Below are positions 14,306 through 28,422 of a stretch of 64,000 bases of DNA, one piece after another. Origin of the DNA: Enterocloster aldenensis. GTDB taxonomy: Bacteria; Bacillota; Clostridia; Lachnospirales; Lachnospiraceae. The notes beneath the pieces were generated by a model. That model worked only from the letters and a program-made list of their open reading frames with translations, made no database searches and was not told the origin of the DNA. The stretch spans positions 62,001 to 126,000 of the forward strand of contig NZ_QVEX01000012.1 of NCBI RefSeq assembly GCF_003434055.1. The letters run 5' to 3'. Positions within the stretch are counted from its first letter, which is position 1. Each line of letters begins with the position of its first letter. Position numbers and translations under genes: made by a program.

Positions 14306-15711
14306 GCTTGAGGGACGTGACATTTGTTGTGGAGGACGGGAGCCTGGGCAATTCCGGAAGCACCGGGACCGGGGTCCACGTAAAGATTGGGGCTTCCCCG
14401 GTTGAGACAACGGTCCCCATCCTGATTACAGGGAGCATGAAACCGGAGCAGATGAAGGAAAAGCTGGGGCTCAGCCCCCTGGCGGACGCCTGCATTGACA
14501 GCGTTGAGAACGGGGCATCCCGGATTTACTGCGTGCCGGTCCGTCCGGAGACCGCAGGTACCAACGGGGAGGTTGCCCACAGCGGGACGGGGGGAGGGAC
14601 CGTAAGCGTAAGCGGGACACCGAACAACGCATATGATATCATCCTGAAGATAACGGAGGACGGACCGCCCAATACGGCAGCCTTCTGCTGCTCCGTCAAT
14701 GGCGGATACAGCTACGAAGCGGAGGAGACCATCCCGCTCAGCGGGAAGAAGGAGCTTGCCGGTACCGGAATCACCCTTACATTTGCGGAAGAATTCAAGG
14801 CAGGGGATACCTACCGGTTTTCAACCACGGCCCCGGCCGTGAGCAACAGCGCGGTCCTAAAGGCGGTGGAAAGCCTGTATAACAGTGACCTGGACTTTGA
14901 GTTCATCCATGTGGCCGGGACATCCGCGAAAGCACTCTGGGCCTCCCTGGCTGCCAGTGCGGAACTGTTCCTGTCCCTGTACAGACGCCCTGTGTTCTTC
15001 CTGTGTGAGGCACGTAATAAAGGGGCGGAGGAAAGCCTGGATGAATATACCGCCGCGCTGAAGGCGGAGGCCAAGGGGATAGACAGCTATTACGTCCAGG
15101 TGTGCAGCGCCTGGTCCCAGTACACACGCTGGGACGGCCGGGAGCAGTGCATCAACAACGCCGGGATTGTGGCGGGGCTGTACGGGATAGCCGGCGTGGC
15201 CCAGTCCATAGGCCGCGTGGATACCTTTTCCATCTCGGAGGCCAAGATGACCCGGCTCATGCCGGAGGGCATTGAGGACCATATCAGCGAGCTGGATGAC
15301 GCCGGCTACCTGACCTGGCGTAAGTACTACGGCATTGACGGATGCTATGTAAACAACGCGCGTGTGCTGTGCCGCGAGGGCAGCGATTACCGGTATGCGG
15401 AGCATGTGCGCGTACTGAACAAGATGATACGGGAAATCTACAAGCGGGCTGTCAACATGGTGCAGATGGATATCAGCGCCTCCGATGACATGGAGACGGA
15501 TATCAACAACATCCTGGAGACCCTGAACATCCCCCTGGAAGACATGGCGGAGGCCGGGGAACTGTCAAGCGGTTCCGTGTCCATTGAGGACCTGGAGCAT
15601 GTGAACATCCTGCAGGATGAGCGCCTGGACCTGGTGATATCCTTTGTGCCGAGGGGGTATGTCCGGGAATTCCGGTTCAGCCTGGCCATGGAGAACCCAT
15701 ACAGGAATTAG
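14302..15711 (+). CDS. Tail sheath protein (Mu gpL-like)
   Basis: 469 residues. The N-terminal segment (VHVKIGASPVETTVPILITGSMKPEQMKEKLGLSPLADACIDSVENGA), a beta-rich insertion, then WSQYTRWDGREQCINNAGIVAGLYG and a C-terminal core (MEDMAEAGEL.., LVISFVPRGYVREFRFSLAMENPY) fit contractile-tail sheath proteins of Mu gpL type. Its presence means the phage has a contractile (myovirus) tail. Confidence 0.92.
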   Translation: MSLRDVTFVVEDGSLGNSGSTGTGVHVKIGASPVETTVPILITGSMKPEQMKEKLGLSPLADACIDSVENGASRIYCVPVRPETAGTNGEVAHSGTGGGTVSVSGTPNNAYDIILKITEDGPPNTAAFCCSVNGGYSYEAEETIPLSGKKELAGTGITLTFAEEFKAGDTYRFSTTAPAVSNSAVLKAVESLYNSDLDFEFIHVAGTSAKALWASLAASAELFLSLYRRPVFFLCEARNKGAEESLDEYTAALKAEAKGIDSYYVQVCSAWSQYTRWDGREQCINNAGIVAGLYGIAGVAQSIGRVDTFSISEAKMTRLMPEGIEDHISELDDAGYLTWRKYYGIDGCYVNNARVLCREGSDYRYAEHVRVLNKMIREIYKRAVNMVQMDISASDDMETDINNILETLNIPLEDMAEAGELSSGSVSIEDLEHVNILQDERLDLVISFVPRGYVREFRFSLAMENPYRN

Positions 15712-15724
15712 GAGGGACTGGGAA

Positions 15725-16153
15725 ATGGTCAACGGAAAGGTATACAGCTGGGAGGACATCACCATCAATGTCCCGGGGCTGGAGGAAATCGCCATCACGG
15801 AGATATCCTATGACTTTGAGCAGGAAGCGGAGCTCATTTACCGCAGGGGAGGCGCACCATGCGGCTATGGGACCGGAAACAAGAAGAATACGGTGAAGGT
15901 GGTCATGGGGCGTGAGGATTACAACGTGCTGTTAGCCTGGTGCAAACGGAAGGGAAAGACCCTGTCCCGCCTGCTGCTTGACAAGATAACCGTATCCTAT
16001 GCCAATGAGGACCAGGATACGGTGACGGATGTCTTAAACAAGGTCATCCTTAACAAGCACAGCTTTTCCGCAAAGCAGGGGGATAAGGAGAACACGGTAT
16101 CCCTGGACGGTTTTGCCTGCCGTGGCGGGAAGTTAAACGGCGTGAATTTCTAA
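15725..16153 (+). CDS. Tail tube protein (Mu gpM-like)
   Basis: 142 residues from ATG 15725 with AGGAGGG upstream. MVNGKVYSWEDITINVPGL and a beta-rich body ending DGFACRGGKLNGVNF resemble contractile-phage tail tube proteins. It directly follows the sheath gene, as in Mu L-M. Confidence 0.87.
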   Translation: MVNGKVYSWEDITINVPGLEEIAITEISYDFEQEAELIYRRGGAPCGYGTGNKKNTVKVVMGREDYNVLLAWCKRKGKTLSRLLLDKITVSYANEDQDTVTDVLNKVILNKHSFSAKQGDKENTVSLDGFACRGGKLNGVNF

Positions 16154-16175
16154 TTATAAGAAAGAGGAGAAAGAA

Positions 16176-16508
16176 ATGGAAGCAAAGGAACTGAGAGAGC
16201 AGCTAAAGGGGACGGATGAGAAGTATTACGAGGTGACCGTCACCCTCCAGGTGGATGACGAGACGGAGGAGGACAAGACCTATTTCTTCCGTAAACCCAA
16301 AACCCCATCCTACGACCGGTACTTAAAGACGGTCCAGACCTCAAACAGCAAGGCCCTGACGGCATTCTGCCTGGATAACATCCATCCGGACCAGCGGGAG
16401 ACGCTGGAGGCGGACTTTAAGGAGTACCCGGCCATGGCATTGTCGGTTGGGGAGAAGCTGCTGGCCATGCTTGGCCTGTCAAAGGCGACCGCAGTAAAAA
16501 AGTTATAG
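16176..16508 (+). CDS. Tail assembly chaperone, short form (Mu gp41-like)
   Basis: 110 residues. FFRKPKTPSYDRYLKT and helical ALSVGEKLLAMLGLS resemble Mu gp41-type tail assembly proteins. The last codons GTA AAA AAG TTA TAG contain the heptamer A AAA AAG, so a fraction of ribosomes is expected to slip to the -1 frame and make the extended form. Confidence 0.85.
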   Translation: MEAKELREQLKGTDEKYYEVTVTLQVDDETEEDKTYFFRKPKTPSYDRYLKTVQTSNSKALTAFCLDNIHPDQRETLEADFKEYPAMALSVGEKLLAMLGLSKATAVKKL

Positions 16509-16726
16509 AGGATGCGCAGGGGGAACTGGAGGCGGACTTCGTGGGGACCAGCCGGCTGCTCATCCATATGTACCTGCCTTCCGGCATGATACCGGGAGAA
16601 CTGGACGGGATGGACGCGGATGACTTCATCCGTCTGGCGGGCCTGGCCAGGTGCGCACGCCGCTGGCGGCAGGATGACCTGGAACAGGGATTCACCCGGG
16701 CACTGGGAAACCTGTTCCAGGAATAA
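16176..16726 (+). CDS. Tail assembly chaperone, -1 frameshift product (gp41/gp42-like)
   Basis: Slippage on A AAA AAG at 16496-16502 puts ribosomes into the -1 frame, which reads VIEDAQGELEADFVGTSRLL and continues to 16726, giving about 183 residues. The -1 frame has no good start of its own: ATG 16541 lacks a ribosome site and lies inside the domain. Frameshifted chaperones directly before the tape measure gene are established in Mu, lambda (G/GT) and others. Confidence 0.85.
16496..16502 (+). promoter_or_regulatory. Programmed -1 frameshift slippery heptamer
   Basis: A AAA AAG in the zero frame (codons AAA at 16497 and AAG at 16500), one of the most efficient bacterial -1 slippery sequences. 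The zero-frame stop follows after one more codon. Confidence 0.85.
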
Positions 16727-16758
16727 AAAAGCCCCAGTCATAGAAAGACCGGGGGCTT
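16724..16758 (-). terminator. Intrinsic terminator of the reverse-strand moron
   Basis: On the minus strand the sequence reads AAGCCCCCGGTC, a loop, GACTGGGGCTT, then a run of T (plus-strand A-run at 16725-16730). The stem overlaps the moron's own stop codon and sits immediately after the chaperone frameshift stop. Confidence 0.8.
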
Positions 16759-16974
16759 GCCTGTCAGCCTGGAGCGGTAAAAACGCCATGCGTTGTGGAA
16801 ATCCCGTCCCATGGAGAAGGGCCGCCTGTCCTTGGGGAGATGGGCACAGGCCCACCACAGATAGGGACCACAGAACAGGAGATATGCGGTGACAAGGACG
16901 GCCATGACCACAAGGTACAGTGACAGGCTGACGGCCAGTATGAGTGCCATTATGAGCCAGAGCCCATGGAACAT
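16738..16974 (-). CDS. Reverse-strand small membrane protein (moron)
   Basis: 78 residues, antisense to the late operon between the chaperone and tape measure genes. On the minus strand AAAGGAGGC lies about seven bases before the ATG, with a promoter-like sequence 38-66 nt upstream and an intrinsic terminator at the 3' end. The protein has a strongly hydrophobic first half (residues 2-40, one or two membrane helices) and a basic tail. No family recognised. Independent signals are typical of phage morons expressed in the lysogen, for example for host benefit or superinfection exclusion (inference). Confidence 0.75.
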   Translation of the reverse strand: MFHGLWLIMALILAVSLSLYLVVMAVLVTAYLLFCGPYLWWACAHLPKDRRPFSMGRDFHNAWRFYRSRLTGKPPVFL

Positions 16975-17011
16975 ACAAGCGCCTCCTTTCCAAACACATC
17001 TTTATACCATC

Positions 17012-17040
17012 ATCATAACATAAGCGAGCCCGTGACACAA
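17012..17040 (-). promoter_or_regulatory. Candidate promoter of the moron
   Basis: Read on the minus strand: -35 TTGTGT (17035-17040), 17-bp spacer, -10 TATGAT (17012-17017), then the AAAGGAGGC ribosome site and ATG at 16974. The -10 matches consensus at 5 of 6, the -35 at 3 of 6. Confidence 0.55.
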
Positions 17041-17053
17041 GGAGGAACGAACC

Positions 17054-19513
17054 ATGGGGATGGAATCTGTTTATAAGCTGAGCGTGGTACTGAACATGGT
17101 GGACCAGCTGACCGCCCCCATGGGGAGGGCGTCCCAGAACCTGGGTTCCCGCCTGTCGGGCCTGCAGTCCGGTTTTGGGATGGCGGCCCTGGCCGGAGGT
17201 GGGATGACGGCGGCGGGCGTGGGAATCACAAACGGGATGATGAAGATTGCCGGTTCCACCTTCGAGACCCAGGATGCCCTGGCAGAGCTTAAGTCGCTGG
17301 GAATCACAGACCTGAAAGCGGTGGAGGATGCGGCCAGACAGTTTTCAGACACCTGGGCCGGGACCACAAAGGCTGATTTCATCACAGCCGCCTATGACAT
17401 CAAATCGGGCATCGCGTCCCTGACGGACGAAGGGGTGGCGCAGTTCACGGAGCTGGCCGGCCTGACGGCCAAGGCCACCAAGTCCACGACCGGGGAGATG
17501 ACCTCCCTGTTTGCGACCGGGTATGGCATTTATAAAGGGTATTACTCAGAACTGTCAGACCTGGAATTCGGGGAGATGTTTGCGGGCGGTATTGCGACCG
17601 CTGTCAAGGCGTATAAGACCAGCGGCTCGGAGATGGCCTCGGCCATCAGCGCCCTGGGAGGGACCGCCACATCGGCCAATGTGCCGTTGGAGGAGCAGCT
17701 GTCCGTGCTGGGCATGCTGCAGGCCACCATGTCGGGCAGCGAGGCAGCCACCAAATATAAGGCGTTATTAAATGCCGCCACCGGGGCGGGTGAGAAGCTG
17801 GGGCTCAACTTCCTGGACGCTGACAAGCAGCTCAGGAGCCTGCCGGAAATCCTGGGAATCCTGAAAAGCAAGTATGGGGATACCATTGATGCGGTGGAGA
17901 AGAAAAAGATAAAAGAGGCCTTCGGCTCGGACGAGGCGGTGGCCGTCATCGACCTCCTGTACGGGAAGACAGGCGAACTGCAGACGGGCATCCTGGATAT
18001 GTATGATGCACTGGGAGGAGGAAGCAGCGCCGCCCAGGAGATGGCAACGGCCATCAACGCAACGGAATCCCAGAAGTATACGGTGTTAAAACAGCGGTTA
18101 CACAACGTGACGGAGGAGCTGGGGGTGAACCTGCTGCCGACCGTGAATGACTGGATTGGGAAGGCAGGGCAGGCCGTGGGGAAGGCGTCCGAATGGATTG
18201 CGGAGAACCAGGGGCTTGCATCCGGCATCCTGAACGCGGTCCTGTTCCTCGGGATGTTCCTGACCGTGACGGGGAGCGTGACCTCCATCATCGGCATCTT
18301 CGGGACGGCGATAACACGGACCATCGGCATGGTGGGCGGCTTAAAAAGCGGCTTTGAGACCCTGCGGATTTACGGGATGTACGCCGCGGATGGAATCAAG
18401 GCCATGGGGGCCGGCCTGCTCAACATGGTCCGGCAGGGGATTGCTTCGGCAGCTGCGGCCCTTCCGGGCCTGATATCCAGTGTGTGGGGCTTCACAACAG
18501 CCCTGTTAGCCAATCCGGTGACCTGGATTGTCATCGGGATTGCGGCCCTGACGGCCGGGCTTATCCTGCTCTGGAAGAACTGGGATAAGGTATCCGCCTT
18601 CATCCAGAACGTCTGGAATGCCTGTGTGGAGAAAGTACGGGCGGGCCTGCAGGCCATGAAGGACTTCTTCTTCAACATTGGCGGCGCGATTGTCTCCACG
18701 GTATCAAATGTGTTCAACCGGGTCCGCGGGGCTGTCAGCAGCCGGATGGAGGCGGTCCGGAACGTGATGGGCAACGTGATGGGGGCTGCGGTCGGGACTG
18801 TCAGACAGAAGCTGGACAACATGAAAAATGCCTATGAACAGAATGGCGGGGGCATACGTGGGATTGCGGCTGCTGCGGTAGAGGGCGTCAAGGGCTACTA
18901 TACGGCAGGTTTTGATTTCCTGAATACATTGACGGGAGGAAAGATGAACGGCATCAAGGAGCTGTGGAGCCAGGGCCTGGCAAAGGTCCGTGGTGTGGTG
19001 GACGGGGCAGTAGGTCTGTTCAAACAGTCCGGCACCAAGATAATGGAGACCTTTACCGAAGGAATCCGTTCCGCCGTGAACAAGCCGGTGGAGGCGGTGA
19101 AGGGGGCCCTGTCCAGAATCCGGCAGATGCTGCCCTTTTCCGATGCGAAGGAGGGACCCCTGTCCCAGCTTACCCTGTCCGGCCGGCGTGTGTTTGAGAC
19201 CATCCATACCGGCATGAGCCAGACGGCCTCCCTGCCGGCGGATACGGCGAGGGACGCATTCCAGGCACTGAGTGATGAAAACCAGGAAGGAGGCGCGGCT
19301 TTTGCCAGGCTGTTGACCGGAGGGAAGGAAGAAAGGAAACCGTCCGGCCAGGGAAACATATGGAGCCAGAGGCAGCAGGGAGGCGGGACCGTCATCCAAC
19401 GCCTGGAGCTGCATGTGTCCCTGGAACGGCTGAAGGACCTGCCGCTCTTATTCAAGCTGATTGACGACATCAAGGAAAAGACCAACGGGAACGTATCGGT
19501 CACGCCTGCATAG
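17054..19513 (+). CDS. Tail tape measure protein
   Basis: 819 residues. The N-terminus (LSVVLNMVDQLTAPMGRASQNLGSRL) and the long Ala/Gly-rich helical body (SGFGMAALAGGGMTAAGVGI, LAELKSLGITDLKAVEDAARQFSDTWAG) are typical of TP901/Mu gp42-type tape measures. Hydrophobic segments occur near residues 390-420 and 480-500. It sets tail length and may pass through the host envelope on injection. ATG 17054 follows AAGGAGGAACG. Confidence 0.93.
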   Translation: MGMESVYKLSVVLNMVDQLTAPMGRASQNLGSRLSGLQSGFGMAALAGGGMTAAGVGITNGMMKIAGSTFETQDALAELKSLGITDLKAVEDAARQFSDTWAGTTKADFITAAYDIKSGIASLTDEGVAQFTELAGLTAKATKSTTGEMTSLFATGYGIYKGYYSELSDLEFGEMFAGGIATAVKAYKTSGSEMASAISALGGTATSANVPLEEQLSVLGMLQATMSGSEAATKYKALLNAATGAGEKLGLNFLDADKQLRSLPEILGILKSKYGDTIDAVEKKKIKEAFGSDEAVAVIDLLYGKTGELQTGILDMYDALGGGSSAAQEMATAINATESQKYTVLKQRLHNVTEELGVNLLPTVNDWIGKAGQAVGKASEWIAENQGLASGILNAVLFLGMFLTVTGSVTSIIGIFGTAITRTIGMVGGLKSGFETLRIYGMYAADGIKAMGAGLLNMVRQGIASAAAALPGLISSVWGFTTALLANPVTWIVIGIAALTAGLILLWKNWDKVSAFIQNVWNACVEKVRAGLQAMKDFFFNIGGAIVSTVSNVFNRVRGAVSSRMEAVRNVMGNVMGAAVGTVRQKLDNMKNAYEQNGGGIRGIAAAAVEGVKGYYTAGFDFLNTLTGGKMNGIKELWSQGLAKVRGVVDGAVGLFKQSGTKIMETFTEGIRSAVNKPVEAVKGALSRIRQMLPFSDAKEGPLSQLTLSGRRVFETIHTGMSQTASLPADTARDAFQALSDENQEGGAAFARLLTGGKEERKPSGQGNIWSQRQQGGGTVIQRLELHVSLERLKDLPLLFKLIDDIKEKTNGNVSVTPA

Positions 19514-19536
19514 AAAGCGGCTGGGAGGAAGGAAGA

Positions 19537-20109
19537 ATGCTGTACATAAAGGATACATCCATGCTGGTGGCGGGGGTGGCCGTCCCGGGCCTCGTAAAGA
19601 AGCTGGAGATAACCGGGGCCGCCGTGATTGACGCGGTGACGGATGACAATAACGTGACCCTGGGCTACCAGCCCAATGGGTACGAACCGCTGAAGATGAA
19701 TGTGGACCTGCTGCTGGAACCCAGTGCCGGGGAAAGCGTTGAGGGCATGGTGCAGACCATCCAGCTGCTGTTCAAGCCGCCGGGGCAGACGGCTGCCATA
19801 CCGCTGCCGGTGGTGAACAGCCAGGCCGCAGCCTGCGGTCTGAACCTGGTGTATTTTAAAGGAATCGACCTGTCCAAGAAGACGGAAAACAGTTATGGGG
19901 AGGCAGCGCTGGAATTCTGGGAGTGCCTGCCGGTCACCGTGCAGACCAAGGCGGCGGGAAGCGGGAAAAACGCATCCTCCGGCAGCAAGGCAGGGACGTC
20001 ACAGGCCCAGGGAATCAGTACCGGCTACCAGGAATACCTGAACACACAGAGAGGCCAGGCCCCCAGGATTAAGGATAAGACATCGGAGAGCCCGGCCCGG
20101 GATACATAG
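19537..20109 (+). CDS. Tail/baseplate protein (Mu gpN position)
   Basis: 190 residues; the first ~130 are beta-rich (LVAGVAVPGLVKKLEITGAAVID...), then a Gly/Ser/Lys linker-like tail. It lies between the tape measure and the hub gene, where Mu encodes gpN (DNA circularisation/baseplate). Mu gpN is much longer, so homology is uncertain. Confidence 0.55.
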   Translation: MLYIKDTSMLVAGVAVPGLVKKLEITGAAVIDAVTDDNNVTLGYQPNGYEPLKMNVDLLLEPSAGESVEGMVQTIQLLFKPPGQTAAIPLPVVNSQAAACGLNLVYFKGIDLSKKTENSYGEAALEFWECLPVTVQTKAAGSGKNASSGSKAGTSQAQGISTGYQEYLNTQRGQAPRIKDKTSESPARDT

Positions 20110-20117
20110 GAGGTAGC

Positions 20118-20861
20118 ATGGCAGAACGGAAACTGATTACGCCACGGTTCCGGATAACCGTTGGGGACCAGGTATTCACGCAGGGAATCCGTGTGGAATG
20201 CCATTCCAGCCGGAGGGAGCAGTGCAGCTGGGCCACCTTGGAATATGACCCCGGTTATGCCGGGCTCCTGGACCTTGCATCCATGGCCCCGGCCCAGGTG
20301 GAACTGGGCTATGACGGGGATTATGACACGCTCTTAACCGGATACATGGCGGACGGCCAGGCATTGGGGCCTTACCGGATACTGGACGATACACTGTTCC
20401 TGAAACGGACCTACGTAAAGGAGACCTTCCTGGACTGCTGTCCGCAGGATATCATCCGGTTCGGCCTTGGAAGGGCCGGGATTGCGGATTACCGCCTGTC
20501 CGATACCATGTACCCCAAAAAGGATGTGGTCCCGGTCCCGCGCATGAATGTGGCGGAGCTTATCCAGGAGGTGGGCCGGGTCTGGGGTCTGGAGGCATCC
20601 TTTTATTTCCGGTCCGGCCGGTTTTTCTGGGGGACCGGGGAAGAGCAGACGCTTATCTATGTACTGGAGGAAGGGAAGAACATCCTTTCCTTCAACCAAT
20701 GGAACGGCGGTAACGAAATCAAGACCATCGGGGTCCCGTGGATTCACCAGGGAGAGCGTATCCGGATAAGACACCGGAAGTTTGACGGGGAGGCCCTTGT
20801 GACCTCGGTCCGGGTGAAGGCGGATGAAACGGGAAGCGTGAGGATGTATGTATCATTTTAG
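20118..20861 (+). CDS. Baseplate hub protein (Mu gpP / late control D-like)
   Basis: 247 residues. ITPRFRITVGDQVFTQGIRVECHSSRREQCSWATLEYD, LFLKRTYVKETFLDCCPQDIIRFGL and FNQWNGGNEIKTIGVPWIHQGERIRI resemble the hub family of contractile phages (Mu gp44, P2 gpD-like). It is expected to cap the tube at the baseplate centre. Confidence 0.75.
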   Translation: MAERKLITPRFRITVGDQVFTQGIRVECHSSRREQCSWATLEYDPGYAGLLDLASMAPAQVELGYDGDYDTLLTGYMADGQALGPYRILDDTLFLKRTYVKETFLDCCPQDIIRFGLGRAGIADYRLSDTMYPKKDVVPVPRMNVAELIQEVGRVWGLEASFYFRSGRFFWGTGEEQTLIYVLEEGKNILSFNQWNGGNEIKTIGVPWIHQGERIRIRHRKFDGEALVTSVRVKADETGSVRMYVSF

Positions 20862-20882
20862 CTGGAAGGAAGGGGATTCAAA

Positions 20883-21176
20883 ATGGCCGGTTTTCTTGAC
20901 GAATTTGTCAAACTGACGGTGAATGAGACCATAGGGACAGACTATCCGCATATACGCCATCCGGCCCTGTACCAGGCAAAGGTGATGGAAGGGACCGTGA
21001 AGGATGGGGCATCGTATGTGACGCTGCGGCTGCTGAAGGAAAACGGGGAGACGGATGAAGCCTTTCCCGCGATTCCTTATATAAGGACGGAGCAGGTCCT
21101 GAAGAAAGGGGATGTAGTGGCAGTCGGGCTTTTATATGGGCAGTGCCGGCCGTACATCCTGGGGAGATGCTTATGA
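20883..21176 (+). CDS. Baseplate spike-associated OB-fold-like protein
   Basis: 97 residues with a compact beta-barrel-like pattern (PALYQAKVMEGTVKDGASYVTLRLLKENGE, VLKKGDVVAVGLLYGQCRPYILGR). Location between hub and gp25-like wedge corresponds to the spike (gpV-like) slot, but the gene is shorter than usual and lacks an obvious apex domain. Confidence 0.6.
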   Translation: MAGFLDEFVKLTVNETIGTDYPHIRHPALYQAKVMEGTVKDGASYVTLRLLKENGETDEAFPAIPYIRTEQVLKKGDVVAVGLLYGQCRPYILGRCL

Positions 21177-21580
21177 TACTGACGGAAACGGACCTGATGT
21201 TAGACGATACCGGGCAGCCGGTCCCCCTGGCATCGGGAGAGGAAGCACTGGCGGGCGGCCTGGACTGTTTCCTGCAGGACATCCGCCTGGAGGCCCTGAC
21301 CATGGAGGGGGAATGTTTTTTTGATTCCGATTACGGATGGTCGCTGTTGGATTTCTGCCACCGGGAGATAGGCGAACTGGAGGAGCTGCAGATAAAGAAC
21401 CGGGTCACGGAAAAGTTAAGGAAGCGGGATGAAATCAACCCGCACAGCATTGGGGTTGGCGTGTCCCGGATGGGGGATGACATAGTGAACATCCATGTGG
21501 GATTTAAGATTGCAAATGAGGATGTGTCCTATCAGATGGACCTGGAACTGGACGGGGCGGAGGTGAAACTCGTTGATTGA
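21173..21580 (+). CDS. Baseplate wedge protein, gp25/GPW-like (Mu gp46 position)
   Basis: 135 residues. The order LEALTMEGECFFDSDYGWSLLDF, then EIGELEELQIKNRVTEKLRKRDEINPHSIGVGV and a beta hairpin, fits the gp25/gpW lysozyme-like wedge family. ATG 21173 overlaps the previous stop (ATGA). Confidence 0.75.
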   Translation: MILTETDLMLDDTGQPVPLASGEEALAGGLDCFLQDIRLEALTMEGECFFDSDYGWSLLDFCHREIGELEELQIKNRVTEKLRKRDEINPHSIGVGVSRMGDDIVNIHVGFKIANEDVSYQMDLELDGAEVKLVD

Positions 21581-22703
21581 TGAAAGCATTCTGGATGAAA
21601 TCATACCGGTCCCTGATGCCGATACAAAGATGCAGGAGCTGAAGGAGGAGCTGGCGGCGGAAGGGTTTACCATCACCAAGTGGGGCAGCGGAGGCGTCTT
21701 TTACTGGCTGACACGTATCTGCGTGCAGATACACATCGAGCTGCTCCGTCTGGCGCGGACCATCCTGAACAACCAGTTCCTGCGGCATGCGGAAGGCAGG
21801 TGGCTGGAACTGAAGGCGGCGGACTTTTCCAAGTTCCGGAAGGCGGCGACCCGGACCCAGGGATATGTGACCCTTGTCAGGTCCGATTACGGGCAGGCCC
21901 TGACCGTGACGAAGGGACATATGTTCAAGACGGCCCCGGACATCAACGGGGATGAGCTGGTCTACTACACGTTAGAGGATACGGTGATACAGGCCGGCCA
22001 GGCGGAGGGCAGCGTGCTGGTGGAGGCGGAAGCGGCCGGAGCGCGCTACAATGTGAGTGAGGACCAGATAAGGGTAAGCATGATATACCTGGAGGGCGTG
22101 TCGCAGGTCACGAACCGGCAGGGATGGATATATTCCGAGGGGGCAGATGAAGAGAGCGAAGCCGGCTTACGCAGCCGGACCCTGTCCAGCTGGGAGGAAC
22201 TGTCCACCAATACCACATCGGCCAAGCTGAAGGCAGCCGTGGAGGCCATCCCGGGTGTGATGTGCGCCTACATTGATGACCAGCATCCAAGGGGGCAGGG
22301 AACGGTGGATGTGATTGTGGTGGGGACGGCGGGGGAAGCCAGCGAGGAGCTGGTGCGCAAGGCCCAGGCGGCGGCGGACCAGCTGAAGGATAATTACGAG
22401 GACTACCTGGCAAAGTCCGGAACCATCACCTATCAGGATGTGGACATCACCCTGTACCTCAAACAGGGGGCAGGGGTGACGGATGTGGAGGAAACGGCCC
22501 GGTCCCTGATAGCGGGGGCCATGTCCCTGTCCAACCGGACGGACTTCAACTTATTCTTACAGGATGATATCCGGTATGTGCTCCGCCAGAGCATACCGGA
22601 CTACCGTAAGACCGTATTCACGGCCCCCGCAGTGGATGTGGAGCTGCCGGCCGGGAATGTGGTCATGCTGGGGAGTATCACGGTCAAGGTAAGGAACACA
22701 TAG
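21573..22703 (+). CDS. Baseplate J-like protein (Mu gp47-like)
   Basis: 376 residues. RWLELKAADFSKFRKAATRTQGYVTLVRSD, GARYNVSEDQIRV, AVEAIPGVMCAYIDDQHPRGQGTVDVIVVG and LYLKQGAGVTDVEE are typical of baseplate J. The start is TTG 21573: GGAGGTG is seven bases upstream and no in-frame ATG is nearby. It overlaps the wedge gene by 8 nt. Confidence 0.9.
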   Translation: MIDESILDEIIPVPDADTKMQELKEELAAEGFTITKWGSGGVFYWLTRICVQIHIELLRLARTILNNQFLRHAEGRWLELKAADFSKFRKAATRTQGYVTLVRSDYGQALTVTKGHMFKTAPDINGDELVYYTLEDTVIQAGQAEGSVLVEAEAAGARYNVSEDQIRVSMIYLEGVSQVTNRQGWIYSEGADEESEAGLRSRTLSSWEELSTNTTSAKLKAAVEAIPGVMCAYIDDQHPRGQGTVDVIVVGTAGEASEELVRKAQAAADQLKDNYEDYLAKSGTITYQDVDITLYLKQGAGVTDVEETARSLIAGAMSLSNRTDFNLFLQDDIRYVLRQSIPDYRKTVFTAPAVDVELPAGNVVMLGSITVKVRNT

Positions 22704-22713
22704 GAGGGACGCC

Positions 22714-23526
22714 ATGCTGGAGACATTCGGGGAATATATGTATTATCTGCTGTCCACGCCCTTCAAACAGGCAAGGAAGGCCAGGAACCAGTGGTATATC
22801 TATTTCAAAGTGACCGGGCGGCTGTTCGATGAAAACAAGACCATGCTCCGGCGGGCACGGGAGGAAGGCATGGTAAGGACAGCCAGCCCACGGATGCTTC
22901 CGGAGCATGGCCTGGACCGGAAACTGACGCGCTATGAGGGCGAAACCTGGGAAAACTTCCGGGTACGGCTGATGATGTATGCAGACACCTGCCGGCTTGG
23001 CGGGACGGAGGTGGGCACGCTCCAGGCGGTGCGGTCCCTGGGCTTTACCGATGTGGAGATGGTGCCGGCGTATGAACTGGAGGGCAGCCGGGAGCACTGG
23101 GCGGAATTTTATGTCATCCTGTCCCGGGATATAGATGATTCCTTTGACCTCGGCCATGATATCATCCGCCGGGAGGTACGGCGGGTAAAGAAGGTAAGCG
23201 GGCTGGACCGTTACCGTTTCCTGTACCGGATTCAGGACGCAGGACTGGAAGAATGCATCCGCCCCCATGACATCCTGATACGGGCGGAGATGCGCTGGTA
23301 TAACAATAACATCCTGAACGGGGAGCACGACAACGATGGAAGCATCCATCATGACAATGTGATTGGAAACCACCTGCCCTACCTGCACATACGCAGCCGG
23401 ATGGAGGAGGATGAGGAGGGAAGGCTGACATGTACAACCTGGCATCACTGGAGAATCCATGATGGGAGCACGTACAATGATGGAGCCAAACATATGGATG
23501 CACAAGTCATAGAGGAGGAAATCTGA
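22714..23526 (+). CDS. Tail protein I-like baseplate protein (Mu gp48-like)
   Basis: 270 residues. RKLTRYEGETWENFRVRLMMYADTCRLGGTEVGTLQAVRSLGF resembles the DUF2313/tail protein I group that links baseplate and fibres. The C-terminal part is charged. It shares its stop region with the following fibre gene. Confidence 0.72.
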   Translation: MLETFGEYMYYLLSTPFKQARKARNQWYIYFKVTGRLFDENKTMLRRAREEGMVRTASPRMLPEHGLDRKLTRYEGETWENFRVRLMMYADTCRLGGTEVGTLQAVRSLGFTDVEMVPAYELEGSREHWAEFYVILSRDIDDSFDLGHDIIRREVRRVKKVSGLDRYRFLYRIQDAGLEECIRPHDILIRAEMRWYNNNILNGEHDNDGSIHHDNVIGNHLPYLHIRSRMEEDEEGRLTCTTWHHWRIHDGSTYNDGAKHMDAQVIEEEI

Positions 23527-23888
23527 TGGCAAGTACAACGATAACCAAGTTGAGTAAGAATAAGATACTGAAGGCCAGGGCGGGCATCAAGGCATTGCCG
23601 GCAGTCACACAGATGGCATTTGGGAACGGCGCGGACGGGACGCCATCAGAGGATGATAACACCTTGAAAAACGAGCTGTTACGGAAGGACCTGAGCAGCA
23701 TCGAGCAGGTGACGGACACCAACTTCCGGTATATCTGTACCTTATCCAGGGAGGAACTGGCCAACACGTCCATCAATGAGATGGCATTGTGTGATGCGGA
23801 GGGTGACCTGGTGATGATACGCACCTGTTCGGACAAGAACAAGGATGATGACGAGGAGATGACCTTTGCGTTTGACGATATCTTTTAG
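23526..23888 (+). CDS. Tail-collar-like fibre base protein
   Basis: 120 residues. MASTTITKLSKNKILKARAGIKALPAVTQMAFGNGADGTPS resembles the N-terminal attachment part of phage tail-collar fibre proteins (PBSX/P2 gpH-like N-terminus), here as a separate short protein. It precedes the variable fibre gene by 12 nt, so it may be the attachment base for it (inference). Confidence 0.65.
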   Translation: MASTTITKLSKNKILKARAGIKALPAVTQMAFGNGADGTPSEDDNTLKNELLRKDLSSIEQVTDTNFRYICTLSREELANTSINEMALCDAEGDLVMIRTCSDKNKDDDEEMTFAFDDIF

Positions 23889-23900
23889 GAGGCAGGGAAG

Positions 23901-24410
23901 ATGGCGAATTTTGAGATAAATGAAGAACAGGCGGCGCTCATCCGGGAGTTGAGAAAGCTGGAAACCTCAGACCCGGTCCACGCGGATGTATACAATGCCC
24001 TGTTCGGGAAGCTGATTAACAATGATGCATTCCTGGAGCGGCTGGCAAACAAGATGATAGAAAAAAGCATGTTGTGCCATGTGCTGGACAGCGTCAACAC
24101 ACAGCAGGTCCTGGCAGCGGATGTGGGACCCAAAATCACGAAGATAACAGACGGGCTGCAAAAAAGTATTAGTGGGCTCAATACGGATTTAAAATTACTT
24201 GCTTCATGTTTTAACTTTGAAAAAGTAGCTATAATACAGCCTTTTTTCGATGATGCAGACCAATCATTCGGTTTTCGCTCCTATTACAATATGTCGATGG
24301 CAGCAGGCTACGCAATACATTTCTACTACAGTGGCGAGAAACGTATTACATTGCGATTTTTAGATACTGATGGTACCTGGAAAGATTCATGGACTGGAAA
24401 GTTGCAATAG
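23901..24410 (+). CDS. Tail fibre: constant N-terminus joined to expressed variable cassette A
   Basis: 169 residues. Residues 1-93 are helical and GC-rich like the rest of the phage. Residues 94-97 (NTDL) are encoded by the recombination core at 24180-24191. Residues 98-169 come from an AT-rich cassette unlike the upstream DNA. The same core recurs five times downstream, each with a different in-frame continuation, so this gene is the expression site of a shufflon-like system. The C-terminus probably contacts the host surface (inference). Confidence 0.85.
   Translation: MANFEINEEQAALIRELRKLETSDPVHADVYNALFGKLINNDAFLERLANKMIEKSMLCHVLDSVNTQQVLAADVGPKITKITDGLQKSISGLNTDLKLLASCFNFEKVAIIQPFFDDADQSFGFRSYYNMSMAAGYAIHFYYSGEKRITLRFLDTDGTWKDSWTGKLQ
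24180..24191 (+). repeat. Recombination site A (in expressed fibre gene)
   Basis: AATACGGATTTA, read in frame as Asn-Thr-Asp-Leu (fibre residues 94-97). The DNA changes from GC-rich constant to AT-rich variable at this point. Confidence 0.85.
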
Positions 24411-24423
24411 CTTAAATGATTAT

Positions 24424-24753
24424 TCACCACCATTTTTTCATGAACAGCGCATCTGCCGAAATACCCTGCGGGATTATTTTCTGCTCATTTCGGTCATTGC
24501 CCACGAAACAAGTCAGGATGTTTGAAGATGACGCTATGTAACATGCGTATGCAACGTTCCCATTGCTTTTTACATTGGTAACACATAGAAACATATATCC
24601 ATCTGGTACAGTAATCGGTATACGTATCTCCTGTCCACCATTAGGCGCAAGAGTTATGGATTGTGAATATGTAAATGTTTTTATAAGCAATGGGTTAATT
24701 AAATCCGTATTGCGCACAGTAAAGCAGTCTGGTGCTGCCAAGCCTCCTATCAT
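24424..24753 (-). CDS. Silent tail-fibre C-terminal cassette B
   Basis: Minus-strand open frame whose residues 15-18 are NTDL (site B). It runs convergently towards cassette A, ending 13 nt from it. The ~90 residues after the core (INPLLIKTF... ending ALFMKKWW) look beta-rich. There is no ribosome site before the frame, so it is probably expressed only after A-B inversion brings it behind the constant N-terminus. Confidence 0.8.
   Translation of the reverse strand: MIGGLAAPDCFTVRNTDLINPLLIKTFTYSQSITLAPNGGQEIRIPITVPDGYMFLCVTNVKSNGNVAYACYIASSSNILTCFVGNDRNEQKIIPQGISADALFMKKWW
24701..24712 (-). repeat. Recombination site B (inverted)
   Basis: The reverse complement reads CAATACGGATTT; the core is preceded by GCG as at site E. 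Confidence 0.85.
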
Positions 24754-24781
24754 ACAATAAAGATACCAAATTTATTGTATG
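24751..24781. repeat. Inverted repeat overlapping the recombinase ribosome site
   Basis: CATACAATAAA (24751-24761) and TTTATTGTATG (24771-24781), 11 bp perfect with a 9-nt loop. The right arm ends on the first G of the GGAGG ribosome site for the recombinase. It could be a protein-binding dyad or an mRNA hairpin limiting recombinase translation. Confidence 0.7.
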
Positions 24782-24793
24782 GAGGTAGAACAA

Positions 24794-25789
24794 ATGGATG
24801 AAGTAAGGTTAAAAGATGAGCTTATGGCCAGGTTGTCCAATGAACTGGACCGGCCTGCGCTGCAGGTGATTGACGGGGCACTATCGTCAGTGTTGCGAAA
24901 CTACGAAATATCCAAAAGGGAAACCGGGTTGAGTACCAACATAATCAGCTTTCCAGAATTGGATATTTTCATCGGGAAAATCAGGTTTGAAAATTATTCG
25001 GTTAGTACAGTCAATCAATACCAGCGTTTTTTGACGGACTTACTGATTTATGTAGGTAAGCCAGTACAGGAAATCGCGGGAGAGGATGTGGTGGAATGCC
25101 TTAATTATTATGAGCAGGCTAGAAAGATTAGCTCCAGCACCAAAGACCACAAACGGCGCATTGCAAGCTCCTTCTTTACTTTTCTACATGAACGAGGCTA
25201 CATCTCAAAAAATCCTATGTCCACCGTGGACCCAATCAAGTATGTAGCAGAAATACGGGAGGCATTGACCAGCCGTGAAGTAGAGAAACTGCGTATTGCC
25301 TGTGGAACCAATATCCGTGACAATGCAGTTCTGGAGCTGTTCCTGGCAAGTGGTTGTCGTGTCAGCGAAGTGGTCAGTATGCGGGTAGAAGATATGGACC
25401 TTCAGGCGGGATGTGGGAAAGTATTAGGAAAGGGAAAGAAGGAGCGCATGGTGTTCTTTAATGACCGTGCGATGGAATATTTGGAACGATATTTGGGGGA
25501 CCGTAGGAGCGGGGCTGTGATACTATCAAAAAGGGCACCTTATCAAGGATTAAAGAAGAATGCCCTGGAGAACATTATCCGGAAGATTGCAAAAAAGGCA
25601 GGGCTGGGTAAGCGGGTATTTCCGCATTTGCTGAGGCACACATTTGCCACGCGTGCATTGAACAAAGGTATGCCGCTTCCAACATTATGTGATTTGATGG
25701 GGCATTCGAGTGTAGAAACCACCAGGATATATGCAAAAAATGGTGCCGGAAAGATTAGATATGAGTACGACATGTATGCTGCATCCTAA
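24794..25789 (+). CDS. Tyrosine recombinase (DNA invertase of the tail-fibre array)
   Basis: 331 residues. ATG 24794 is eight bases after GGAGG; the upstream in-frame ATG 24779 overlaps the ribosome site. An N-terminal SAM-like core-binding domain (about 50-150) is followed by the catalytic domain with R189 (SGCRVSEV), K213 (LGKGKKER), H278 and R281 (HLLRHTFAT), H304 (LMGHSS) and Y313 (TRIYAK), the full tyrosine-recombinase set. It sits between sites B and C and so would itself be flipped by some inversions. A Mu-like phage does not need an integrase, so inversion of the flanking sites is the likely job. Confidence 0.92.
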   Translation: MDEVRLKDELMARLSNELDRPALQVIDGALSSVLRNYEISKRETGLSTNIISFPELDIFIGKIRFENYSVSTVNQYQRFLTDLLIYVGKPVQEIAGEDVVECLNYYEQARKISSSTKDHKRRIASSFFTFLHERGYISKNPMSTVDPIKYVAEIREALTSREVEKLRIACGTNIRDNAVLELFLASGCRVSEVVSMRVEDMDLQAGCGKVLGKGKKERMVFFNDRAMEYLERYLGDRRSGAVILSKRAPYQGLKKNALENIIRKIAKKAGLGKRVFPHLLRHTFATRALNKGMPLPTLCDLMGHSSVETTRIYAKNGAGKIRYEYDMYAAS

Positions 25790-25797
25790 CTCTTAAA

Positions 25798-25827
25798 ATC
25801 TGACAGGATTTTTTTGGCCTGCCAGAT
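25798..25827 (+). repeat. Hairpin-forming inverted repeat after the recombinase
   Basis: ATCTGACAGG and CCTGCCAGAT with one mismatch, enclosing a T-rich loop (ATTTTTTTGG). It lies 9 nt after the recombinase stop. It may stabilise the mRNA end or act as a weak terminator. Confidence 0.5.
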
Positions 25828-25851
25828 GGGAGGCTTACTTAAAGTACGCTT

Positions 25852-26202
25852 ATGGGGGATGTTGAGCACAGTTATAATTATATAGAATTGTTATGCGTGC
25901 TATATTTTTGCATTTCCGGGCATAATACGGATTTAAGTAACAGGTTTGCGAGCAGAGTTGCTGACTGCAATTTCCTTACTGAGGGTAAAAGCGAGACGGT
26001 AGTAATGGCAATTTGGGATAATAATACACTCAATACACCATATAAGCAGGGAGTCAGTGGATTTGGTAATGGCTTTGTTATCGGTATGTCTCTTGAGCTT
26101 GCCTGGGCTATTCAGGTTGCTTTTGCAGTGTCAGATACTAACTTGTTTGTCCGAAGTTATACTCTTGCTGGAATCGGTTGGACCGGTTGGCGAACTATAT
26201 AA
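25852..26202 (+). CDS. Silent tail-fibre C-terminal cassette C (pyocin-knob-like end)
   Basis: Residues 25-28 of this frame are NTDL (site C). The part upstream of the core is hydrophobic and without a ribosome site, so it is probably not translated in this orientation. After the core, the ~90 residues end with AIQVAFAVSDTNLFVRSYTLAGIGWTGWRTI, a close match by eye to the pyocin-knob repeat seen at receptor-binding tips of phage fibres. It overlaps cassette D by 8 nt at the 3' ends. Confidence 0.78.
   Translation: MGDVEHSYNYIELLCVLYFCISGHNTDLSNRFASRVADCNFLTEGKSETVVMAIWDNNTLNTPYKQGVSGFGNGFVIGMSLELAWAIQVAFAVSDTNLFVRSYTLAGIGWTGWRTI
25924..25935 (+). repeat. Recombination site C
   Basis: AATACGGATTTA in direct orientation relative to site A, in frame as NTDL. 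Confidence 0.85.
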
Positions 26203-26530
26203 TTGAAAAGGAAAGACATCCTGCATACCTCCCTGCACCACAGGGATTTGCAATGATATCCTTTTTATTTAAGTAAAACGGCATAGAAATGTCGCCGTTT
26301 TCCCAGCCTGTAATGCGCCCGTGCCTGACGATTGTTGATTCAGGCAGTCCGCTTACAATCAGCGTGTTTATTGCTGTAATCTGCTTTACAGTGATATCAA
26401 AATCCACAAAACACGTACCGTTAAGGACTTTGTATACCACGGTTCCAGCACTTACCCAATCCGAATTAATGACGGCATCCCCAGAATATGCCTTAACAAT
26501 TCCATGGTCTGATAAATCCGTATTGTACAC
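26195..26530 (-). CDS. Silent tail-fibre C-terminal cassette D
   Basis: The minus-strand frame begins (GTG) TAC AAT ACG GAT TTA, giving YNTDL (site D), then ~106 residues with YKVLNGTCFVDFDITV and LIVSGLPES. This resembles cassette F (YRVKSGICYIRCRII, LICSGMPKS), suggesting the two ends are diverged duplicates. No ribosome site precedes it. Confidence 0.78.
   Translation of the reverse strand: MYNTDLSDHGIVKAYSGDAVINSDWVSAGTVVYKVLNGTCFVDFDITVKQITAINTLIVSGLPESTIVRHGRITGWENGDISMPFYLNKKDIIANPCGAGRYAGCLSFSII
26513..26525 (-). repeat. Recombination site D (inverted)
   Basis: The reverse complement reads CAATACGGATTTA. Confidence 0.85.
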
Positions 26531-26579
26531 AGCAACTAAAATGAATAAAAATGAGTTTTTGATGAATTAACATACTGAT

Positions 26580-26918
26580 GTGCGCAATACGGATTTGAAT
26601 TATAAAAGAGAATTTCCTAGTGCATCTTGGTTTGAAGATACAGATTATGCAAAAATACATACTGATTTTGGCGCTATCTGTACTTATGGACTATTGGTAC
26701 ACAGTTATGTAGTAGTTGATATTTTAAAAGATGCTAGTCCATACACATGTTTACTCAAATTCAAAAGGCAGGTAGCAGAACATACTATAGCATGGGATAT
26801 AAAGCATAATGAAAAGGCTGTTTACATAGCCGTGAACGGGAATGTTAACACTAATCAAACATTAGCAGCAAATAGTCAAATCACTATGATTGGAACTTTC
26901 ATGATAACATCAAAATAA
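26580..26918 (+). CDS. Silent tail-fibre C-terminal cassette E
   Basis: The frame opens GTG CGC AAT ACG GAT TTG, i.e. RNTDL at site E, followed by ~108 residues ending AANSQITMIGTFMITSK. Beta-rich, AT-rich, no ribosome site. It ends 4 nt from the convergent cassette F. Confidence 0.78.
   Translation: MRNTDLNYKREFPSASWFEDTDYAKIHTDFGAICTYGLLVHSYVVVDILKDASPYTCLLKFKRQVAEHTIAWDIKHNEKAVYIAVNGNVNTNQTLAANSQITMIGTFMITSK
26585..26596 (+). repeat. Recombination site E
   Basis: CAATACGGATTT followed by G instead of A; still in frame as NTDL (TTG Leu). Confidence 0.85.
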
Positions 26919-26922
26919 TCAT

Positions 26923-27253
26923 TTATTGATTAATGGGATATGAAAAGGAAACATATCCATTCCCCGCCTGGCCTGACAAATTAATCTTCAGTTCGGTCGA
27001 ATTATTATCAATGTAAACCACACCTATAGCAGCAGTTCCTATACCGTTCGAGCAGTAGCGGCTTTGTCCTATGGCAGATTTAGGCATCCCACTACAAATA
27101 AGCACGTTTTCCCTTGCAGAAGCAGATGGCGTAATAATCCGGCACCTTATGTAGCATATGCCTGATTTTACACGATAGTATATTTCACCCGTTATTTCAG
27201 AATCTATGATATCTTCAATCAGTGTGACTGCACTCATTGTTAAATCCGTATTG
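26923..27253 (-). CDS. Silent tail-fibre C-terminal cassette F
   Basis: Read from site F on the minus strand: NTDLTMSAVTLIEDII... ending NGYVSFSYPINQ, about 103 residues after the core. Related by eye to cassette D in the YRVKSG and SGMPKS segments. No start signal of its own near the core. Confidence 0.78.
27241..27253 (-). repeat. Recombination site F (inverted, outermost)
   Basis: The reverse complement reads CAATACGGATTTA. It is the right boundary of the array; no further copy was seen downstream. Confidence 0.85.
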
Positions 27254-27333: not shown

Positions 27334-27510
27334 ATGTCAAAACAGAAGAAAGAAATAGGACCGGATTTTGCAGAAAAGCAGCCAACTCCATATCTGTATG
27401 ATGCGCCGGCAAATGTACCATTTCCGGGAAAACATCAAAGTGGTAAAGGGGGACCATCTGATTGCAATAACAACGGTATAGATGATTCAGAAGAAGAGGA
27501 GGAAATGTGA
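27334..27510 (+). CDS. Small hypothetical phage protein (58 aa)
   Basis: ATG 27334 follows AAGGAGGACAAGATT, a strong site. The 58-residue product is Pro/Gly/Asp-rich with an acidic EEEEE tail and looks disordered. Function unknown. The stop overlaps the next start. Confidence 0.6.
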   Translation: MSKQKKEIGPDFAEKQPTPYLYDAPANVPFPGKHQSGKGGPSDCNNNGIDDSEEEEEM

Positions 27511-27962
27511 TGTCAAGATTGGTCACTATGACAGGAATATCCGTTCCAGTTTTTAATGTAATAAGGAACCAAAATGTTCCATCCCTAGAAGTTCAAATAT
27601 TACAGTCTCAGGCCCAGGAAATTGACCTGTTGAAACTTTTCAAGACAGAGAGTGAGCTTTCTACACTTACTTTGATGTCAGACCAGGGAATCCTCGAAAA
27701 TCAGTACATGAATTATTCTAAGTTAGATACATATAACATTCAGAATGATTATATTGTTAAAGAAGCTATAGGGGGCTGGTCAGCTATTGTGGATGAAGAA
27801 GGCCATACCGTTTCAGAAGAGGTGACGGCAGAGCCAGCTCTAATTGATAATCTGATTACAATAAGGCTGTTGAAAAAAAGTGATTTAGAACGTAAGGTAG
27901 ATAATAACGTGCAGTTGATTGATGCCATGTCAGTAGCACTTGCTCAAATAATGGGAGGTTGA
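27510..27962 (+). CDS. Hypothetical phage tail-region protein (150 aa)
   Basis: Start at ATG 27510 (TGATG overlap with the previous stop; AGAGGAGGAA upstream). Mixed alpha/beta protein ending in a helical IDAMSVALAQIMGG. It resembles the small proteins often found after fibre genes in clostridial phages, but I cannot name a family. It could assist fibre assembly (inference from position only). Confidence 0.55.
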   Translation: MSRLVTMTGISVPVFNVIRNQNVPSLEVQILQSQAQEIDLLKLFKTESELSTLTLMSDQGILENQYMNYSKLDTYNIQNDYIVKEAIGGWSAIVDEEGHTVSEEVTAEPALIDNLITIRLLKKSDLERKVDNNVQLIDAMSVALAQIMGG

Positions 27963-27966
27963 CTTT

Positions 27967-28113
27967 ATGGAAGCATGGAAGAAAGTAATATTCGTTAATT
28001 CAATAAAAGTAAGACTTCAAAATGGAGAGGGAAGTGCGGAAGAGATAATTAACTCCTATGCGAAATTGACGGATAGCGAGAAGGAAATTCTTAAAGCAGA
28101 ATTCTCAAAATAA
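27967..28113 (+). CDS. Small phage protein (48 aa)
   Basis: ATG 27967 after TGGGAGGTTGACTTT. A 48-residue helical, charged protein (EEIINSYAKLTDSEKEILKAEF). Similar in size and position to XkdX-type proteins but without their signature. Last phage gene before the terminator. Confidence 0.55.
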   Translation: MEAWKKVIFVNSIKVRLQNGEGSAEEIINSYAKLTDSEKEILKAEFSK

Positions 28114-28160: not shown

Positions 28161-28170
28161 CCCAAAATAT

Positions 28171-28208
28171 TTTGCCAAAAATGTTGAGAATTTTTGCCAA
28201 AAATGTTG
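28171..28208. repeat. Tandem 22-bp-spaced repeats at the prophage right end (candidate transposase sites R1/R2)
   Basis: TTTGCCAAAAATGTTG occurs at 28171-28186 and again at 28193-28208, exactly 22 bp apart. Mu's R1 and R2 transposase sites are also adjacent 22-bp units. The inner repeat runs towards the phage and the outer one is followed by GGCGCGCA/CA, so the phage end read inward starts with TG, as Mu ends do. Confidence 0.7.
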
Positions 28209-28216
28209 GGCGCGCA

Positions 28217-28422
28217 CAATCACCAAAAAGAATCAGGACGAAATAAATGAAATACTGAATGAGACCATTCGAAAAGCATCGTATCATTTTGGGGACCCAC
28301 ATCTCAATATCGCCACATTGGCCGGAATATACCGGATGGCAATCAAGGAATATGATTTGCGGCATGGCCTGGAAACAGAAAAGAAAATACGTCCGTGTAT
28401 TAATATGTCGGAGTTCCTTTAA
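28217..28422 (+). pseudogene. 3' remnant of a gene apparently interrupted by the prophage
   Basis: From the phage end an open frame without a start runs TITKKNQDEINEILNETIRKAS... to CINMSEFL and a stop at 28420-28422. It looks like a genuine, soluble, helical C-terminus of about 68 residues. No family recognised. Its 5' part would be on the far side of the prophage, outside the window. Confidence 0.5.

Follow-up and report, generated by a model that had tools for sequence, protein, structure and literature searches.

A shufflon-like array encoding a tyrosine recombinase and six alternative ends of a probable tail fibre in a Mu-like prophage of Enterocloster aldenensis

Introduction

A stretch of 64,000 nucleotides from Enterocloster aldenensis (RefSeq assembly GCF_003434055.1, contig NZ_QVEX01000012.1, positions 62,001 to 126,000), referred to here as the window and numbered from its first letter, contains the right part of a Mu-like prophage in which six short sites, three cassettes and a tyrosine recombinase gene form an array behind the constant start of a late tail gene. 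This array is a recently active switching system, and the breaks between its rearranged copies lie at the sites. The whole explanation, in which recombinase-driven exchange at the core of these sites switches six ends of a fibre, is considered highly probable. A multi-cassette tyrosine-recombinase array in a Mu-like phage had been proposed in an earlier note on this DNA, and every element of that description holds, although the kind of system is not new, being already known from the R64 shufflon, the Rin shufflon of Bifidobacterium (PMC6109161) and the Int1 module of haloviruses (PMC6471424). What is new lies in the detail, namely a single conserved arm joined to a 7-bp core that is constant within arrays and variable between them, the static spacers, and a predicted hairpin over the ribosome-binding site of the recombinase. 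Tail-fibre switching by Mu-like phages of gut Clostridia can be tested directly on this array; public genomes already contain copies rearranged in nature, and the prophage is nearly identical in two related hosts while its fibre end differs.

Layout of the array

The array of the window is written N-a-b-c-d-e-T, where N is the constant part of the switched gene, a, c and e are cassettes, b and d are spacers, and T is the far end; sites 1 to 6 are named N, bL, bR, dL, dR and T after their slots. Related loci and proteins carry L and P numbers, respectively. The features of the array are as follows.

23901..24179, + strand: first 93 codons of the switched gene, encoding the constant N-terminal part of a probable tail fibre; forms ORF 23901-24410 with end a1
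24180..24190, + strand: core site 1, N slot, exact
24191..24410, + strand: cassette a, end a1, open and in frame, the one expressed in the window
24424..24700, - strand: cassette a, end a2, antiparallel, open and in frame
24701..24711, - strand: core site 2, bL slot, exact
24712..25923, + strand: spacer b, place and orientation constant in 10 of 10 related loci judged
24742..24786, + strand: predicted RNA hairpin pairing with the ribosome-binding site of the recombinase; upper stem arms 24751-24761 and 24771-24781
24794..25789, + strand: tyrosine recombinase gene, 331 aa when read from the conserved start, PF00589 and PF13495
25924..25934, + strand: core site 3, bR slot, exact
25935..26202, + strand: cassette c, end c1, in frame; attached to N in L024 and L089
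26195..26513, - strand: cassette c, end c2, in frame; attached to N in P0141
26514..26524, - strand: core site 4, dL slot, exact
26525..26585, no strand: spacer d, 61 bp, place and orientation constant in 10 of 10 related loci judged
26586..26596, + strand: core site 5, dR slot, exact
26597..26918, + strand: cassette e, end e1, in frame; attached to N in 1_7_47_FAA (L007)
26923..27241, - strand: cassette e, end e2, in frame; attached to N in P0137 (end 98% identical)
27242..27252, - strand: core site 6, T slot, exact

A search of the window for AATACGGATTT recovered the six exact copies that the earlier note had reported, alternating in orientation (24180+, 24701-, 25924+, 26514-, 26586+ and 27242-), together with a seventh match at 41890 that carries one mismatch and lies outside the array. 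This is far above chance, as 0.85 matches with at most one mismatch are expected per window and seven were reached in none of 100 shuffles. The reading frame passes through all six sites as N-T-D-L and remains open for 76, 95, 92, 109, 110 and 109 aa, and in the window the first end alone is attached to an N-terminus (ORF 23901-24410), as the same note had described. Its six AT-rich 3' cassettes have to be redrawn: the six ends are indeed different and AT-richer (GC 0.38, 0.43 and 0.36 for the three cassettes, versus 0.57 at 15000-24170), but they are arranged as three antiparallel pairs in three two-ended cassettes (a 24191-24700, c 25935-26513, e 26597-27241) with two spacers between them (b, which holds the recombinase, and d) rather than as six single segments. 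The ends are nearly unrelated to one another, the single detectable match between any pair being a local one of 32% between c2 and e2 (E 5e-5). Scans of the region for promoters and terminators gave no excess over chance (8 versus 12.8 expected, and 2 versus 3.7 expected, respectively).

Rearranged copies

Two loci carry the segments of the window in other arrangements: L007, the array locus of Clostridiales bacterium 1_7_47_FAA (genome G001, DS990260.1), and L024, the IMG/VR contig IMGVR_UViG_2534682207_000013 of 7,402 bases, which is also the contig of L040, one of 18 stretches in viral contigs that match the exact-site pattern. The segments recur in both at 99.1-100% identity with changed orders and orientations, reading N-e-b-c-d-a'-T in L007 and N-c-b-a-d-e'-T in L024. 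Every break in the two loci falls inside the 11-bp core: all six left flanks are retained, and the right flanks joined to them, exactly at the core, come in a permuted order. In segment e of L007 both mismatches sit where the alignment overruns the core into the next arm. No segment is gained or lost among the three copies, segments are inverted as well as moved, and neither L007 nor L024 contains runs of N. The backbone of the prophage differs from that of G001 by only 7 mismatches in 19,901 bases, so the shuffling of the array must be recent; the leftmost part of the window is more divergent (24 mismatches in 3,288 bases and 22 in 359). The earlier note had proposed a comparison of cassette order among related prophages, with identity in all of them as the unfavourable outcome, and three near-identical copies turn out to have three orders.

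The loci of E. citroniae (L009/L090, L010 and L089) are each interrupted by runs of N, that is, scaffold gaps, as would be expected if the cells were mixed. In L010, end c1 is attached to both N and bR, which points to mixed states or to a duplicated cassette.

Anatomy of the sites

The anatomy of the sites was derived from 14 loci including the window, excluding one isolated match in L008 (4306) and any site lying too close to the end of a contig. Over 33 unique contexts the left arm is conserved as T(-11)..T(-8)G T G Y N Y A(-1), i.e., T..TGTGYNYA, position -1 being A in 25 and T in 8, while the 38 unique right contexts show no conservation past +3. The 7-bp core is identical at every site seen within one array and differs between arrays, reading ATACGGA in the window, L007, L024, L009, L010 and L089, ATACCAA in L025, L026, L028, L008, L030 and L088, ATACTAA in L027 and L029, and ATAACGA in the four-site array L056. 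Because the letters just outside the core vary between sites (those after it, TTT or GA, in L008, L028 and L088, and the letter before it by slot in L025-L027), strand exchange probably takes place inside these 7 bp, which fits the overlap of 6-8 bp of tyrosine recombinases. The comparison of the family thus reveals the logic of the sites (one arm, an array-specific core and static spacers) at single-base level without experiment.

Genome 2534682207 has two contigs with different cores (L024 and L028). In E. citroniae one core recurs at two or more loci (L009, L010 and L089), and this counts against a simple rule of private cores. Cassettes are shared across cores, end c2 of the window being 97% identical to an end of L028 and 78% identical to an end of L026. 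A 16-mer of the bL arm matched 10 viral stretches, six of them on contigs already known, and L092, L094, L095 and L097 were found to be without an array of their own core.

The recombinase and the hairpin at its start

The earlier note had also placed a complete tyrosine recombinase inside the array, and this assignment stands with a shifted start. The gene lies between sites 2 and 3 on spacer b, and its product matches PF00589 (8e-39) and PF13495 as well as XerA/XerD in the PDB. Its likely start is 24794 rather than the listed ORF start at 24779, the resulting 331 aa being the commonest length among database relatives. Residues R194, K218, H283, R286, H309 and Y318 are invariant in an alignment of seven recombinases (that of the window and six relatives), and these we take to be the full catalytic R-K-H-R-H-Y set. 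Against NCBIfam, the protein scored under the curated cut-off for every model listed. Close relatives are rare, being found at E 1e-60 in 2 of 397 genomes sampled from the family, one of them only 37% identical, and at 1e-40 in 5 of 17 genomes of the genus, three of them 88-100% identical; the matches in the phage collection (838 records) were all below 60% identity. Since the enzyme is encoded within the array and has the catalytic residues, we infer that it carries out the switching.

The hairpin predicted at the start of the gene pairs with the Shine-Dalgarno region in all eight sequences folded (the window, L008, L025-L029 and L056), with a folding z of -3.1 in the window and of -1.48 to -5.29 across the eight. 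The RNAalifold consensus comprises 17 pairs, of which 9 have changed on both sides. The covariation term (+0.49) is slightly unfavourable, and in some rows several of the pairs are broken. The hairpin probably acts as a brake on translation of the recombinase, and read-through transcripts are likely to be poorly translated owing to it, by analogy with transposases.

The switched protein

The switched gene, whose versions encode 169-203 aa, lies directly 3' of the Baseplate J, tail protein and collar-fibre genes, the last of which is the following feature.

23526..23888, + strand: short tail-collar fibre N-terminal gene just 5' of the array, PF12571 (2.8e-8) and phrog_1780 (6e-17)

The protein database holds 359 relatives of ORF 23901-24410, and the joining of ends was read from the best 120 of them. 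Among these, an N of at least 89/93 identity is attached to all six ends of the window: a1 in P0121 (where the core reads N-T-N), a2 in P0147 and P0149, c1 in P0145, c2 in P0141 and others, e2 in P0137 and e1 in P0136, a partial protein; e1 is also attached to N as a complete ORF in L007. The same N is joined to ends absent from the window in P0138, P0140, P0143 and P0150, and in a relative from Clostridium phage Villandry (P0168) N is identical at 83 of 93 positions. In the phage collection the constant part gave no match. AlphaFold models of two versions place helices in N and strands in the tips at low confidence (pLDDT about 50). By its position, the protein may be regarded as a receptor-binding tail fibre, and a tail-fibre function is probable. 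The suggestion in the earlier note that host range would be extended combinatorially is too strong, as one end at a time is attached to the constant part, which gives six fibre versions irrespective of how the remaining segments are ordered.

Proposed mechanism and alternative explanations

In the proposed mechanism, the XerA/XerD-like recombinase of the prophage would recombine the six short sites flanking the three two-ended cassettes, which follow the constant start (93 codons) of the late tail gene. At each event, a left arm specific to its slot would be joined, within the ATACGGA core, to a right side specific to its cassette, with the result that any of the six C-termini could be read in frame after N-T-D. 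The recombinase would probably be held down by the hairpin over its ribosome-binding site, and the presumed benefit is adsorption to varying Enterocloster surfaces.

How the segments move can be judged from the spacers. The orientation of spacer b relative to N or T is kept in L007, L008, L009, L010, L024, L025, L026, L027, L028 and L029, and agrees by eye in the four-site L056, while spacer d is kept in L007, L008, L010, L024, L025, L026, L027, L028, L088 and L089; the arrays compared are not independent, some coming from one genome and all being related. In the near-identical copies, the cassettes both move and flip while the spacers stay. Two crossovers between sites of the same direction (1x3 and 2x4) would swap a and c and leave b untouched, and with such a swap counted as one step, L007 and L024 are each two steps from the window. 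Because both spacers are static in every array judged, flips of cassettes in place together with exchange of cassettes between slots are probably the working moves. The rearrangements that the earlier note had anticipated as A-B, A-D and A-F inversions are borne out insofar as rearranged states exist with breaks at the sites, but simple inversions alone leave the static spacers unexplained, and flips with swaps, or the loss of spacer-flipped states, fit better. A fuller account, judged less likely than not, is that of a machine of slots and cassettes, in which the fixed spacers and array ends alone would carry the conserved arms, and armless two-ended cassettes would flip in place and trade slots through paired recombination, in the manner of recombinase-mediated cassette exchange and perhaps between replicating Mu copies; the lineage-specific core would restrict exchange to compatible cassettes, and the hairpin would keep read-through of the late operon from unleashing the recombinase. 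Free inversion between any oppositely oriented sites, as in a shufflon of the R64 type, has a chance somewhat short of even, the static spacers then reflecting chance or selection against spacer-flipped states. Both rearranged loci can be reached from the window in this way (three inversions for L007 and five for L024), Rci of IncI2 plasmids is described as inverting segments between any inverted repeats (PMC5430464), and the title of a reference in that paper states that site asymmetry inhibits recombination between direct repeats, which would argue against swaps. Of the 384 states reachable by inversion alone, however, 48 keep both spacers as in the window, yet all five further complete six-site arrays (L007, L024, L025, L026 and L027) do so, giving (1/8)^5 = 3e-5 under a uniform walk, a figure that is no strict probability, the arrays being related and recorded as majority states. 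The comparison across the family also makes the control of recombination direction in arm-less tyrosine recombinases a testable question.

That the orders differ through homologous exchange of modules between phages, with no site-specific enzyme, is very improbable: the cassettes common to phages with different cores would suit it, but the three near-identical copies have the same content, with segments turned around in addition to being relocated, and their breaks all lie within a sequence of 11 bp, which is too short for homologous recombination. Switching might also act on a baseplate protein, a decorating protein or another product that is not a receptor-binding fibre. The short product and the constant part, with its weak PHROG matches of unknown function (best E 0.012), would be compatible with this; the location of the gene directly after those for Baseplate J, tail protein and collar fibre, and the ends that are almost unrelated (32% for the best full-length pair), as expected for binding tips, make it unlikely. 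Recombinase-driven switching of fibre ends also has points weighing against it. The constant part and the switched protein have no Pfam or PHROG family at 1e-3 and the latter no NCBIfam match at 0.01, and the AlphaFold models of the two versions are unreliable (pLDDT 50.8 and 49.6). The evidence of switching comes from assembled copies, and consensus assemblies give the majority state only, not the mixture inside one culture. Moreover, in the related arrays L088 and L030 sites are present while spacer b finds no match; these arrays would be either decaying or served by a recombinase in trans. The arrays of these two prophages are reduced, with slots N, d and T in L088 (6250-7700) and only N and T in L030 (11470-11999).

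The Mu-like prophage and its hosts

The assignment to a Mu-like phage made in the earlier note is upheld by head genes of the Mu type (Portal_Mu, Phage_Mu_F, Mu-like_gpT and Phage_Mu_Gp27), accompanied by tail sheath and baseplate J genes, and, outside the window, by the MuA-type transposase and MuB-like ATPase of the corresponding G001 prophage (PF02914, PF09299 and AAA_22). Insertion sites vary, the host flanks after the shared right end being different in the window, L007 and L009; the left end of the copy in the window lies beyond the window.

28170..28218, + strand: right end of the Mu-like prophage, in which TTTTGCCAAAAATGTTG occurs twice; 28218 is the last position of the prophage, beyond which the copies compared have three different host flanks

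In the 19 kb of host DNA compared (37-56 kb), the identity to G001 is 89-90%, versus a nearly identical prophage, and because the hosts are only about 90% alike, a recent movement of the prophage between related species is suggested by these sequences. No DNA match to positions 1-25000 of the window was found in the phage collection. In G001, GCAAG follows the right end, and the sole GCAAG-TG in L074 lies at the break of a sugar-binding reading frame (one copy only, a 7-letter match alone being expected by chance). The gene interrupted by the G001 prophage appears from its reading to encode a sugar-binding ABC protein, and GCAAG flanks the insertion at either end (L074 about 11781 and L007 11305). 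This may represent a 5-bp duplication of the target; the Mu-like assignment itself is based on the genes and the host flanks. Three small genes without known family (27334-27510, 27507-27962 and 27967-28113) lie between the array and the prophage end.

Comparison with known systems

The comparison draws on titles, beginnings of abstracts and available passages of open-licence literature, in which no description was found of such a system in Enterocloster or in other clostridial Mu-like phages. Villandry, a related prophage of E. clostridioformis YL32, has been found in particles in vitro and in vivo (PMC10197239). In the available text of that paper the word "tail" is absent, as are "invert" and "inversion" in that of a study of C. 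clostridioforme prophages, including a Mu-like one (PMC11318856), and "prophage" in that of a study of invertons (PMC11892184).

The Gin, Cin and Min systems of Mu, P1 and p15B likewise switch phage tail fibres, Min by multiple inversions, but they employ serine recombinases (PMC6109161). Where Mu has Gin and one invertible segment, the present array has three two-ended cassettes and a tyrosine recombinase, no search having been made for a serine recombinase elsewhere in the prophage. The Int1 module of the haloviruses phiCh1, phiH1 and ChaoS9 also has its tyrosine recombinase gene placed centrally within an invertible region of tail-fibre genes, and differs in its two inversely oriented fibre genes and archaeal hosts (PMC6471424).

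Within the same genus, L070 (5085-8282) has a 32% identical recombinase between cassettes and four alternating TAAACGATAATTTA sites, but by the reading of its ORFs it is an apparent hsdS specificity switch of a type I restriction system, not of a phage protein. It was the only clear alternating array in a script scan around distant recombinases (24-37% identity) that covered L011, L012, L016, L051, L057 and L068-L072, with L051 and L072 overlapping and L013-L015, L017-L023, L058-L060 and L062-L067 left out; L061, a partial match, had no alternating array.

The array has the features of the shufflon class, that is, a tyrosine recombinase, several 3' ends behind one start at inverted sites, and rearranged states. 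With the IncI shufflon and its recombinase Rci it shares the type of enzyme, two-ended segments with two partial ORFs each and a constant N-terminus (PMC5430464), as well as asymmetric sites, according to reference titles in the same paper. The IncI shufflon differs in acting on a plasmid pilus adhesin, with rci at the end of the array and repeats of 19-23 bp, and static spacers, present here, are unmentioned in the available passages of that source. In place of pilV on an R64/IncI plasmid, the array belongs to the tail operon of a prophage whose copies share their right end and differ in the host DNA beyond it.

The closest parallels come from prophages of Bifidobacterium, with the Rin shufflon (PMC6109161), and of Eggerthella lenta, with a Rin-like locus (PMC8778435); these are other phage types, in hosts belonging to the Actinobacteria. 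Rin recombinases flank the variable ends, whereas the gene lies here inside the array on a static spacer, and two-ended cassettes with slot-specific arms are a feature of the present array, unlike Rin. Both have a phage-borne tyrosine recombinase, which in Bifidobacterium is XerD-like without an arm-binding domain (PMC6109161), and a constant N-terminus of a receptor-binding protein followed by several variable ends (PMC6109161, PMC8778435). The sites, as given in the papers, are short and asymmetric in the Rin and Rin-like systems (11 bp and 8 bp), as they are here, and that of E. lenta, ttccgtat, is ATACGGAA on the other strand and has ATACGGA in common with the core of the window (PMC8778435).

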